Below the pieces are notes generated by a model that was not told the DNA's origin, did not search any database, and was given only the letters and a program-made list of their open reading frames with translations. A program made the translations under genes and the position numbers. From Armatimonadota bacterium (GTDB lineage Bacteria > Armatimonadota > UBA5829 > DSUL01): DNA of 64,000 nucleotides. The stretch covers positions 682,001 through 746,000 of the forward strand of contig AP024674.1 in assembly GCA_025998755.1 (NCBI GenBank), in the 5' to 3' direction. Of the stretch, positions 54,131-57,363 are shown one piece after another; position 1 is the stretch's first letter, and each line of letters opens with the position of its first letter.

Positions 54131-54160
54131 TTGTTGGCTGCGGTGGGCGGCGGCTATAAT
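54131..54160 (+). promoter_or_regulatory. surE promoter implying a leaderless start
   Basis: TTGTTG (54131-54136) and TATAAT (54155-54160) with an 18-bp spacer. The predicted transcription start is 54167-54168, which is GTG 54168, an in-frame start codon of surE. ATG 54159 lies inside the -10 box and would not be on such a transcript. Confidence 0.72.
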
Positions 54161-54167
54161 GCCTCAC

Positions 54168-54968
54168 GTGGACCGAGTGATCCTCATCACCAATGACGAC
54201 GGGGTGCATTCCCGCGGCATTCTTGAGCTCAAGCAGGCCCTTCAGGATATGGGGGACGTGTATGTCGTCGCCCCGGACCGCGGCAGGAGTGCCTGCGGGC
54301 ACGGAATCACCCTGCATAAACCTTTGCGCCTGAACAGGGTGACTCTGGCCGACGGTTCGGAAGCGTGGTCTACCTCGGGCCTGCCGACGGACTGTGTCCA
54401 CATCGGCATCGGCGCGGTCTGTCCGCGGCGCCCGGATCTGGTCTTCTCAGGAATCAATCTCGGCGCCAACCTGGGATGGGAGCTCACCTACTCCGGCACG
54501 GTGGCCGGAGCCATGGAGGGTGCAGCCTTCGGAGTGCCTTCTGTAGCTATCTCCGTCACCACTTACGAAGATGGCGACGTATTCGGTCCGTCGGCGCGGT
54601 TTGCGCGCAGGTTGGCTGACATTTTGCTGGAACGTCCTTTGCCGGAGGGTGCATTCCTGAACGTCAACGTTCCAGCACTCCGCGAGCAGGATATCGCCGG
54701 CGTGGCGGTGACACGCCTTGGGATCCGGCGCTATCCGGGACGCGTGGAAGCTCGCCGCGATCCAGTCGGACGCACCTATTACTGGCTGGGCGGAGACGAA
54801 CCGGAGGACGGGCTGGAGGAGGGCACGGACGTCCTCGCTGTGCGGCAACGGTTCATCTCCGTCACTCCGGTCCATCTGGATCTCACTGCCCACTCTGCCA
54901 TCGAGCACGTGCGGACCTGGCCGCTGGATGGCTGTCTCGCCGGGGCCGGCTTGCCTGCGGCGGACTGA
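54168..54968 (+). CDS. surE: 5'/3'-nucleotidase SurE
   Basis: A 266-residue metal-dependent phosphatase acting on nucleoside 5'- and 3'-monophosphates, and on short polyphosphate in some members. ILITNDDGVHSRG (about 5-17) holds the Asp-Asp metal ligands, followed by APDRGRSACGHGITL and the FSGINLGANLGWELTYSGTVAGAMEGA region (in part; about 83-106). There is no signal peptide. The frame is open from ATG 54159, but that codon overlaps the -10 box, so GTG 54168 is my start. No Shine-Dalgarno sequence is present, consistent with a leaderless message. Confidence 0.92.
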   Translation: MDRVILITNDDGVHSRGILELKQALQDMGDVYVVAPDRGRSACGHGITLHKPLRLNRVTLADGSEAWSTSGLPTDCVHIGIGAVCPRRPDLVFSGINLGANLGWELTYSGTVAGAMEGAAFGVPSVAISVTTYEDGDVFGPSARFARRLADILLERPLPEGAFLNVNVPALREQDIAGVAVTRLGIRRYPGRVEARRDPVGRTYYWLGGDEPEDGLEEGTDVLAVRQRFISVTPVHLDLTAHSAIEHVRTWPLDGCLAGAGLPAAD

Positions 54969-54975
54969 TGGCCGC

Positions 54976-55755
54976 TCAGAAAATCGGCTCCAGGATCTCT
55001 CCCCTGATGCCCACCATCTTCACGTCAACGGGCACCTGTTTTCCGGCGGCAAGCACCGCCTGTTTGGCCGCCTGAACCAACCCGAAGCAGCAGGGAACCT
55101 CCATGTGCAGCACGGTGATGGATTGGATGTCGTTCATCTCCAGGATGGCGGTGAGTTTCTTCAGGTAGCCGCCAAGGTCATCGAACTTCGGACATCCGAT
55201 CACAACTGCTCGACCCCGCAAAAAGTCCGGGTGGAACGATGCCAGCGCGAAAGGCGCGCAGTCGGCCGCGATCAACAGATGGGCATCCTGGAAATAGGGT
55301 GCTGCCGGGTTCACCAGGTTGATCTTGACGGGCCACTGCCGCAGCTCGCTCGGAGTAGAAGGCGCGTGGGCATCGTGCGCCGGGCGCGGGGCCTGTTCGC
55401 GGAAGTCCATCATGCGTGCTCCGGGGCACCCGCTATGGGCAGCCTGAGCGGCCCCCGGCGATTGCGCGGCGTGCGAGTGAGCATGATCGGCCGCTGAGAT
55501 ACCCTGTTCCCGCAGGCGCTTTTCGACGGCGGCCTCATCGAACTCTTCGGCCTCACGTTCCTCGATGGTGATGGCTCCCTTTGGACAGTGCCCCAGGCAG
55601 GCTCCCAGTCCGTCGCAGTAGCGTTCGGACACCAGCCTCGCCTTCCCGTCCACAATGGCCAGTGCGCCTTCCACGCAGTTCGGGATGCACAGACCGCATC
55701 CGTCGCACTTCTCTTCGTCTATGCGGATGATCTTCCGCAGCGTTGTGACAGCCAT
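54976..55755 (-). CDS. 4Fe-4S ferredoxin-domain protein of unknown function
   Basis: A 259-residue iron-sulfur protein. Residues about 17-62 have two 4Fe-4S motifs, CDGCGLCIPNC and CDGLGACLGHC-P, of the bacterial-ferredoxin type, the second with a CxxxxxCxxxC-P layout. A His/Ala-rich linker (about 87-135) follows. The C-terminal half has IAADCAPFA, VVIGCPKFDD and MEVPCCFGLVQAA, more cysteines that could bind a cluster or metal. This is the family of redox proteins seen beside hybrid-cluster proteins or NO-response regulators. AAGGAGA lies before ATG 55755, and an FNR-type operator precedes the promoter. Confidence 0.82.
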   Translation of the reverse strand: MAVTTLRKIIRIDEEKCDGCGLCIPNCVEGALAIVDGKARLVSERYCDGLGACLGHCPKGAITIEEREAEEFDEAAVEKRLREQGISAADHAHSHAAQSPGAAQAAHSGCPGARMMDFREQAPRPAHDAHAPSTPSELRQWPVKINLVNPAAPYFQDAHLLIAADCAPFALASFHPDFLRGRAVVIGCPKFDDLGGYLKKLTAILEMNDIQSITVLHMEVPCCFGLVQAAKQAVLAAGKQVPVDVKMVGIRGEILEPIF

Positions 55756-55824
55756 GTTCCGTCAGGTCTCCTTTTTCGCCGGGTTGGTGGAGAGTACGGG
55801 GCAACAGGCCCCGCTGTCAGTCTT

Positions 55825-55830
55825 ATGATA
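55825..55830 (-). promoter_or_regulatory. -10 box of the 4Fe-4S gene promoter
   Basis: On the minus strand TATCAT (5 of 6) lies seven bases before the predicted start G at 55818. No good -35 box is present (GGCTCC), as expected when an activator is required. Confidence 0.5.
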
Positions 55831-55851
55831 GGCGTCACGGGGAAAGGGAGC

Positions 55852-55867
55852 CTTGACGGAGGTCAAG
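55852..55867 (-). promoter_or_regulatory. FNR/DNR-type operator (TTGAC-N4-GTCAA)
   Basis: A perfect inverted repeat CTTGAC-GGAG-GTCAAG. Its centre lies 41.5 bp upstream of the predicted start at 55818, the class II activator position. TTGAC/GTCAA half-sites with N4 spacing resemble those of FNR-, DNR- and NnrR-like regulators (FNR itself prefers TTGAT-N4-ATCAA). No regulator gene is in the window. Confidence 0.62.
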
Positions 55868-55899
55868 ACCGCAAAAAGTCCGCTCCGCAGCGATAATGC

Positions 55900-57363
55900 T
55901 CAGCGGGCAGCTTCAGTCAGCCGCGAGATCTCGGCAGCCTTCTCGTCTGCCACGCGGGTGCTGAGGCCCACCCAGTACCGTTCCGGATTGCGCAGGCGGC
56001 GCATCTCGGGTGTAAGCTCGGCGATCCGCTCCTGCGCGTAAGCCCTGATGGTATGAATGTCGGGACCGGGTGCAACCCGCCGCCCGTCGCGAAGGACGCA
56101 CTGCAACATCTCCACCGACTTCAGTTCCGGACCAAAGGTGCGGGTTCGAGCATACTCCACGCGGTTGTGAGACACGCACGCTTTCCCCGCCGGAACCTCC
56201 TCGTCCAGCGCCAGCAGCACGTCACCGACAGGCGCTCCGTCCGAACGGTAATACCGCACAACTCGCTTCGGTCCCGGATCGGTGGTCTTCTCGATGTTGG
56301 AGGACACCTTCATTTTGCTGGTCATCCGGCCGTTCTCTGCCACCGCCACCAGCTTGTAGACACCGCTGAGGGCAGGTTCGGAGCCTCCTGTGACGAGGTG
56401 GGTTCCCACGCCCCAAGAGTTGATCCGGGCTCCCTGGCGTTTCAGGTCGGCTATCAGTTCTTCGTCCAGGTCATTGGAGCCCACAATCAACGGATCCTCA
56501 AATCCCGCTTCCGTAAGAGTGCGGTGCGCCAGCTTGGAAAGATAGGCCAGGTCCCCGGAATCCAGCCGCACGGCAGCCCTGCCTTCCCAGCCCTGTTCCC
56601 TTCGGGCCTGCAGCACGTCAAGGGCCGCAGGCAGACCGTTCGCCGCCGTGTCATAGGTGTCTATCAGCAAGACGGGGTTCCTGGGGAAGATGTCCAGATA
56701 CGCCTGGAAAGCCGTCTTTTCGTCGGGATAGCTCATGATCCAGGAATGAGCCATCGTGCCCAGCACGGGGATGCCAAGCAGTCTGCCGGCGAGCACGTTG
56801 GAGGTGCCGCAGCACCCCCCGATATAGGCAGCCCGGGATGCGCTCAGCGCGCCGTCCGGACCCTGCGCCCGCCGCAGGCCGAACTCGATGACCGGGTCTC
56901 CCTCTGCTGCGAAACAGACTCGCGCTGCCTTGGTGGCCACCAGCGTCTGGAAGTTCAGGCGGTTCAGCAGAAGGGTTTCGATCAGTTGCGCCTCCGCGAT
57001 GCCCCCGTGCACCCGCACAATGGGCTCGTGGGGGAACACTGGCGTGCCCTCCGGCATCGCCCAGACCTCCCCGCGGAAACGGAACTCTGGCAGCCAGTCC
57101 AGGAATTCGTCGGGAAGGGTGCCCAGCGAACGCAGCCATTCCACCGCGTCTGCTGAGAAATGCAGATTTTCAAGATCATCCAAAAGGTCTCCCAGCCCGG
57201 CGAAGACGCAGAACCCGGTGTGGGATGGAAGAGCGCGGAAGAAGTATTCGAAAACAGCCGGTGTGTCCTGGCGCCCGTGGTGGACGTATCCGGCCATCAT
57301 GGTCAACTGGTAGTAGTCTGTCAGCAAGGCCATCGCCTCCGATGGCCAGATTCTGCGCTCCAT
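55900..57363 (-). CDS. pncB: nicotinate phosphoribosyltransferase
   Basis: A 487-residue enzyme that makes nicotinate mononucleotide from nicotinate and PRPP in NAD salvage. The signature regions are ALLTDYYQLTMMAGY (about 11-25), EFGLRRAQGPDGALSASRAA (about 162-181), GTMAHSWIMSYPDEKTAF (about 203-220, with the active-site His), AVRLDSGDLAYLS (about 260-272) and GVGTHLVTG (about 314-322). The frame is open to 57723 with a long non-conserved head; I use ATG 57363, which has AGGAG about ten bases before it and begins the conserved domain. It is followed by the 4Fe-4S gene with 144 bp between. Confidence 0.93.
   Translation of the reverse strand: MERRIWPSEAMALLTDYYQLTMMAGYVHHGRQDTPAVFEYFFRALPSHTGFCVFAGLGDLLDDLENLHFSADAVEWLRSLGTLPDEFLDWLPEFRFRGEVWAMPEGTPVFPHEPIVRVHGGIAEAQLIETLLLNRLNFQTLVATKAARVCFAAEGDPVIEFGLRRAQGPDGALSASRAAYIGGCCGTSNVLAGRLLGIPVLGTMAHSWIMSYPDEKTAFQAYLDIFPRNPVLLIDTYDTAANGLPAALDVLQARREQGWEGRAAVRLDSGDLAYLSKLAHRTLTEAGFEDPLIVGSNDLDEELIADLKRQGARINSWGVGTHLVTGGSEPALSGVYKLVAVAENGRMTSKMKVSSNIEKTTDPGPKRVVRYYRSDGAPVGDVLLALDEEVPAGKACVSHNRVEYARTRTFGPELKSVEMLQCVLRDGRRVAPGPDIHTIRAYAQERIAELTPEMRRLRNPERYWVGLSTRVADEKAAEISRLTEAAR

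Follow-up and report, generated by a model that had tools for sequence, protein, structure and literature searches.

The gene at the center of this analysis, frdX, lies on the minus strand of an Armatimonadota genome of 3,289,812 bases (3.29 Mb) that is held in a single contig and is 98.95% complete; by the window, we mean the whole 64-kb stretch analyzed here, in which a tRNA scan found none. An FrdX-like ferredoxin domain is detected in the product of 54976-55755, and a sequence from the same genus (CALCJH010000123.1, uncultured bacterium) is 88% identical. frdX converges with a plus-strand gene at 54159-54968, which we take to be SurE-like, with about 7 bases separating the two stop codons (54968-54976). 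Upstream of frdX lies a presumably nicotinate phosphoribosyltransferase-like gene, the open reading frame of which ends at 55900. A weak terminator-like stem-loop (one found versus 0.3 expected) sits between this gene and the operator and suggests that frdX forms its own transcription unit (Table 1).

Table 1. Features of the frdX promoter region, in window coordinates
Feature	Positions	Strand	Remarks
frdX, 259 aa, N-terminal ferredoxin domain and Cys-rich C-terminal domain	54976-55755	-	ATG at 55755
GGAG, likely frdX ribosome-binding site	55768-55771	-	inferred from reading of the sequence
Predicted transcription start (+1)	55818	-	calculated from -10 and operator
-10 hexamer TATCAT	55825-55830	-	read from sequence, compared across the order
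Spacer from operator to -10, 22 nt	55831-55852	-	computed from positions
Operator TTGACCTCCGTCAA	55853-55866	-	center 55859.5 = -41.5; perfect repeat, spans -48 to -35
Terminator-like stem-loop with T-run, 3' of the upstream gene (ORF end 55900)	55880-55893	-	weak

Read 5' to 3' on the minus strand, a perfect TTGAC-N4-GTCAA repeat is followed by 22 nucleotides (nt), a TATCAT hexamer, and a predicted start. As stated in the sequence-only reading of this DNA, the center of the operator falls at -41.5 relative to that predicted start, to the base. The missing -35 is likewise borne out: a scan of 55700-55960 yields no sigma-70 promoter with a -35 element, which rules out the possibility that TTGAC serves as the -35 of an ordinary -35/-10 promoter. 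A usable -10 without a good -35 is what a class II activator promoter is expected to have. In the class II promoters of FNR, the operator is centered at -41.5, no -35 is needed, and the half-site letters are similar, with TTGAT in place of TTGAC.

Could such an arrangement arise by chance? The operator is the sole match with fewer than two mismatches in the window, where matches with up to two mismatches number 15 versus 17.4 ± 4.5 in shuffled sequence; base composition alone predicts 0.025 perfect copies per 64 kb and 1.3 per genome. Genome wide, there is no enrichment of either the perfect motif (3 copies versus 4 for the backwards control) or sites with at most one mismatch (51 versus 60), and given backwards controls that are equal or higher, motif enrichment alone was dropped as evidence. 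The earlier judgment that chance agreement is unlikely thus holds for the motif together with its position, not for the motif alone. A chance palindrome beside a chance -10 would be in keeping with the 1.3 perfect copies expected per genome, but the fixed 22-nt gap is conserved across the order and across phyla, which refutes this explanation and leaves it a negligible probability.

In each of the order's four genomes analyzed here, frdX is preceded by the site, the exact 22-nt gap, and a -10. The operator is perfect in the source genome, G001, and G003 and carries one mismatch in G002, and the -10 reads TATCAT in the source genome and G001, CAGAAT in G003, and TATAAT in G002. Between the source genome and G001, identity is 14/14 in the operator, 6/6 in the -10, 19/22 in the spacer, and 48/60 in the 60 bases upstream. 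The weakest operator, that of G002, is paired with the perfect TATAAT, as expected if activator and -10 compensate for each other. This pairing also bears on the question of whether the palindrome could instead be a repressor operator. HcpR sites that overlap the -10 are predicted, in the passages of PMC545781 cited here, to repress sat and apsAB in Desulfovibrio; the site before frdX, however, ends 22 nt before the -10, in the class II activator position and with no -35, and G002 fits compensation by an activator. We therefore regard repression as very unlikely.

The same geometry extends well beyond the order. We surveyed 110 frdX loci, 80 from named genomes (the best 80 of 527) and 30 from the phylum, and removal of 8 near-identical and 2 too-short sequences left 100 upstreams. 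Between -150 and -20 of these (a set that includes the best 80 of 527), there are 15 perfect sites and 14 with one mismatch, 29 in total, versus 0, 0, 0, 0, and 1 per 100 with a site of at most one mismatch in five coding controls of the same size and 2/97, 0/98, and 1/96 in three segments farther upstream. Among the 29 site-bearing upstreams in this best-80-of-527 set, [TC]AnnnT stands at gap 22 in 22, with 0 to 3 at the other gaps from 10 to 35; a looser -10 rule (four of six matches to TATAAT) gives 20 at gap 22 and 0 to 5 elsewhere. A count of all perfect 5-bp palindromes with N4 that precede a -10 puts 18 of the 100 upstreams at gap 22 and 0 to 3 at each other gap between 14 and 30. These 18 include GTAGC-GCTAC (L057, Thermoclostridium), GTGAY-RTCAC (L091, L103, and L112), and ATGAT-ATCAT (L066), so that the geometry is constant while the operator letters differ, and this constancy is the freshest part of the finding. 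Palindromes of the ATGAC type and others also stand 22 nt from a -10 before frdX at L144, L145, L146, and L147.

What protein would read such an operator? A PF00027 search of the genome returns one CRP/FNR-type protein, of 226 aa, with cNMP_binding and HTH_Crp_2 domains; in a one-contig genome that is 98.95% complete, it is the only known reader of an operator of this kind, and the regulator, which the sequence-only reading had left without a name, can now be given one. Its recognition helix, TPETLSR, is the one expected for a TTGAC operator and has the residues of the HcpR1 rule (Ser or Pro at 180, Glu at 181). The closest solved structure is DNR (3dkw, E 2e-32, 116 bits); all NCBIfam matches fall under the curated cut-offs, FtrB being the best. 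The protein has a single cysteine (residue 49) and hence no FNR-type cluster. By its sequence, the regulator is HcpR/DNR-like and lacks the FNR cysteines. Control by a genuine FNR, which senses oxygen through a 4Fe-4S cluster, would account for the FNR-like look of the helix (xETLSR) and of the TTGAY letters, but the sole CRP/FNR protein of this nearly complete genome has one cysteine. An FNR oxygen sensor is thus refuted unless a second CRP/FNR protein sits in the missing sequence, which makes it highly improbable, even more so than repression. The label "FNR-type" therefore stands for the DNA letters and falls for oxygen sensing through an FNR iron-sulfur cluster.

The regulator also matches proteins at 10 of the surveyed frdX loci (again, a set including the best 80 of 527), for example, with 43% identity in a Desulfuromonadales metagenome-assembled genome (MAG) (L100). 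At 7 of these 10, frdX is preceded by a TTGAC-type site with no more than one mismatch, and the three without such a site (L066, L107, and L120) have a different helix, T-ETAIR. Regulators with xGETLSR, that is, with Gly at 180 (L157, L162, and L152), tend toward TTGAT half-sites (frdX sites L134, L139, and L142), and this pairing is possibly a further case of the residue-base rule.

Within the phylum, regulator and site travel together. frdX occurs in 56 of the 201 genomes sampled, and its upstream was read in 49, the other 7 having partial or split matches. Where the regulator reaches at least 36% identity, the site is always present (23 of 23 genomes; 21 of the sites have no more than one mismatch, and 2, of the TTGAT type, have two). 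Among the remaining 26 genomes, none carries a site within the one-mismatch limit, and 2 show an asymmetric match with two mismatches. Fisher's test gives a p of 2e-14, or of 6e-12 when two-mismatch sites are not counted, with shared ancestry uncorrected and the identity line drawn post hoc. In each of two families (f2 and f3), some genera have both regulator and site and others lack both. Four of the 26 genomes (G004, G019, G071, and G099) have regulators of 32 to 33% identity with the helix RDVISR; 22 nt before TATCAT, TACTAT, TACGAT, or TATTAT, they carry a repeat of the ATGAY type, which is imperfect in G004. In G026, G051, G086, and G111, the regulator gene lies immediately upstream of frdX and the gap to the -10 is 23 nt; the additional frdX copy of G086 lacks the site.

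A scan of the genome, as suggested by the sequence-only reading, also finds the motif with 22-nt spacing to a -10 at redox and nitrogen genes. We read 50 of the 51 sites with at most one mismatch on both strands (100 strands), and a -10-like hexamer stands at gap 22 on 6 of them, the mean for the other 30 gaps being 1.0 and the maximum 3. The enrichment at -41.5 on which that reading staked itself is thus present: gap 22 stands out here, as it does before frdX in other phyla. The six places are frdX, a DUF438-hemerythrin-PAS gene, nrfHA, a cupin-nitroreductase pair, the stretch separating the regulator from a NIR_SIR-PCP_red gene, and L016, where the site lies inside an open frame and is probably due to chance. 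The DUF438-hemerythrin-PAS gene has a perfect site and CATCAT in G001 too, and a search of 28 class genomes turned up relatives in 2, none of them beyond the genus. NrfH scores 156.9 bits with TIGR03153 (cut-off, 134.2), and NrfA scores 483.6 bits with PF02335. At the cupin-nitroreductase pair (we assume that the first member is a cupin), the site is perfect in G001, with a poor hexamer there (CAGGCT), and G001 has lost the site that lies between the regulator and the NIR_SIR-PCP_red gene, which is sulfite/nitrite-reductase-like. The product of the gene that follows the regulator (L004, 185-1021, minus strand) is a fusion of PCP_red, a NIR_SIR siroheme-type domain, and ferredoxin motifs. The third perfect site in the genome precedes a quinol-type NO reductase gene (qNor), where the best -10, CACAAT, is weaker and stands at gap 21. 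The enzyme matches solved NorB chains (E 7e-249) and is also named qNor by Pfam; NCBIfam gives it no name. Upstreams of qNor in six relatives have no site with up to three mismatches (0/6); among the 28 class genomes, 7 have qNor, and every one of these has the regulator. Perfect sites in G002 (L035 and L038) and G003 (L039) are apparently intragenic and were excluded as regulatory.

No Hcp was found in the source genome, though hcp is the usual core target, and Hcp is likewise absent from 4 of 25 further genomes tested (G121, G142, G201, and G202). In G106, of the same phylum, the regulator, the site (22 nt, TACGGT), and hcp stand in a row, which links this type of regulator to hcp within the phylum. 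In Thermoclostridium, the coordinates place the frdX homolog and hcp on one strand, some 30 nt apart (L057 and G207, the match between records being inferred). The source genome has the operator, the helix residues, and the frdX target of an HcpR1 regulon and lacks the hcp target. We conclude that the promoter works like HcpR1; since there is no Hcp in the genome, we do not claim membership under that name.

In total, these observations are consistent with a model, which we consider likely, in which frdX has a class II activator promoter under an HcpR/DNR-like regulator that senses NO or nitrite and governs a nitrite/NO regulon without hcp. The class II assignment made from the sequence alone gains support in that the 22-nt spacing recurs at further redox and nitrogen genes of the genome and, in other phyla, ahead of frdX. 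We posit that a dimer of the sole CRP/FNR protein (226 aa) would bind TTGAC-N4-GTCAA centered at -41.5, replace the missing -35, and recruit RNA polymerase to the TATCAT -10. The regulator would most likely become DNA binding upon sensing NO, or nitrite via NO, probably through a bound heme. FrdX would then be coinduced with NrfHA, the DUF438-hemerythrin protein, the cupin-nitroreductase pair, and probably the quinol NO reductase, in defense against, or use of, nitrogen oxides. The sites, their geometry and conservation, the single regulator with its helix, and the pairing of regulator and site are computed results, and the binding, the activation, the signal, and the heme are proposed. For the signal, which had been given as oxygen or NO, an alternative is that promoter and regulator are as proposed and the regulator responds to redox state, to oxygen, or to some other ligand that the CRP-like domain binds. 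The CRP/FNR family senses many signals, one HcpR2 was modeled as an Fe-S protein (according to the part of PMC5701242 cited here), and class relatives of the regulator carry 1 to 5 cysteines, which makes a thiol or metal sensor possible. Against this, the targets are nitrite and NO enzymes, DNR is the best solved match, and cysteine is absent from some regulators of that group, and so we judge a signal other than NO to be unlikely. Gene content and closest relatives would favor NO or nitrite, not oxygen.

The promoter belongs to an already known HcpR/DNR-like kind; the Armatimonadota case is new. HcpR, frdX, the motif wyTTGACnnnnGTCAArw, and the Ser/Pro-180 rule were described by Rodionov and co-workers (PMC1274295, PMC545781). 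The core, the y, and the r of that motif match the operator before frdX, one outer w (T, minus strand) not being required. In delta-proteobacteria, TTGACnnnnGTCAA is the HcpR motif ahead of frdX and hcp, frdX is a known target of HcpR regulators, and nrfHA belongs to the HcpR regulons of Geobacter and Desulfuromonas (PMC1274295). The source system shares with HcpR1 this operator, the targets frdX and nrfHA, and a CRP/FNR regulator that adjoins frdX or hcp in some genomes, and positive control of hcp-frdX is predicted in the HcpR1 system (PMC545781, PMC1274295). It differs in its phylum, in the absence of hcp, and in the addition of the DUF438-hemerythrin gene, the cupin-nitroreductase pair, and probably the quinol NO reductase. 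DNR of Pseudomonas aeruginosa (PDB 3dkw) resembles the source regulator in its PETxSR helix and FNR-like operator and counts NO reductase among its targets (PMC1274295); in contrast, the DNR consensus is TTGATnnnnATCAA, DNR governs full denitrification, and the similarity is remote (116 bits). In Clostridioides difficile, frdX is also under a NO-responsive CRP/FNR regulator (a likeness drawn from PMC12915319, not from a comparison of FrdX sequences): NO induces it ~220-fold in the wild type and not in an hcpR mutant, and its knock-down gives a NO-sensitive phenotype (PMC12915319). Unlike the source genome, C. difficile has hcp in the same cluster and an HcpR2-type operator (PMC12915319, PMC1274295). 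The HcpR of Porphyromonas gingivalis senses NO by heme, with Met68 as the proposed ligand (PMC12750200). The main text of PMC1274295 mentions neither "41.5" nor an Armatimonad, and our literature search returned no paper joining Armatimonadota, nitric oxide, and FNR and none joining DUF438, hemerythrin, and nitric oxide.

A regulator and a testable regulon can thus be assigned from sequence alone in a barely studied phylum, and the regulon is a compact one for nitrite and NO without Hcp. The exact function of FrdX is termed unclear in the passages of PMC12915319 cited here. Does FrdX act alone? A genome that keeps NO-type control of frdX without Hcp allows this question to be asked directly. 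To generalize further, the frdX promoter may be a fixed-geometry nitrogen-oxide switch across phyla, in which the operator (TTGAC, ATGAC, GTGAC, or GTAGC) ends 22 nt before the -10 and its letters track the regulator, with FrdX a core Hcp-independent enzyme or sensor of NO defense; we offer this reading tentatively and give it somewhat less than even weight. As some switch-bearing genomes are without hcp, FrdX would, on that fixed-geometry reading, be more than the electron donor of Hcp.

The FrdX protein itself merits a few remarks. No PDB entry is related in sequence to its C-terminal part, which has 5 Cys and 1 His. In the structural model (pLDDT 84.6, pTM 0.52), the C-terminal domain is Rossmann-like; Foldseek with this model gives no match at E ≤ 0.001, and residues 152-259 resemble beta-carbonic-anhydrase and Rossmann-like chains (VIA rows) at Z ~6, too weak a score to name the predicted fold as that of a beta-carbonic anhydrase. 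The second ferredoxin motif has three Cys only. Across 37 homologs, Cys 17, 20, 23, 27, 47, 53, 57, 110, 166, 188, 222, and 223 and His175 are all invariant.
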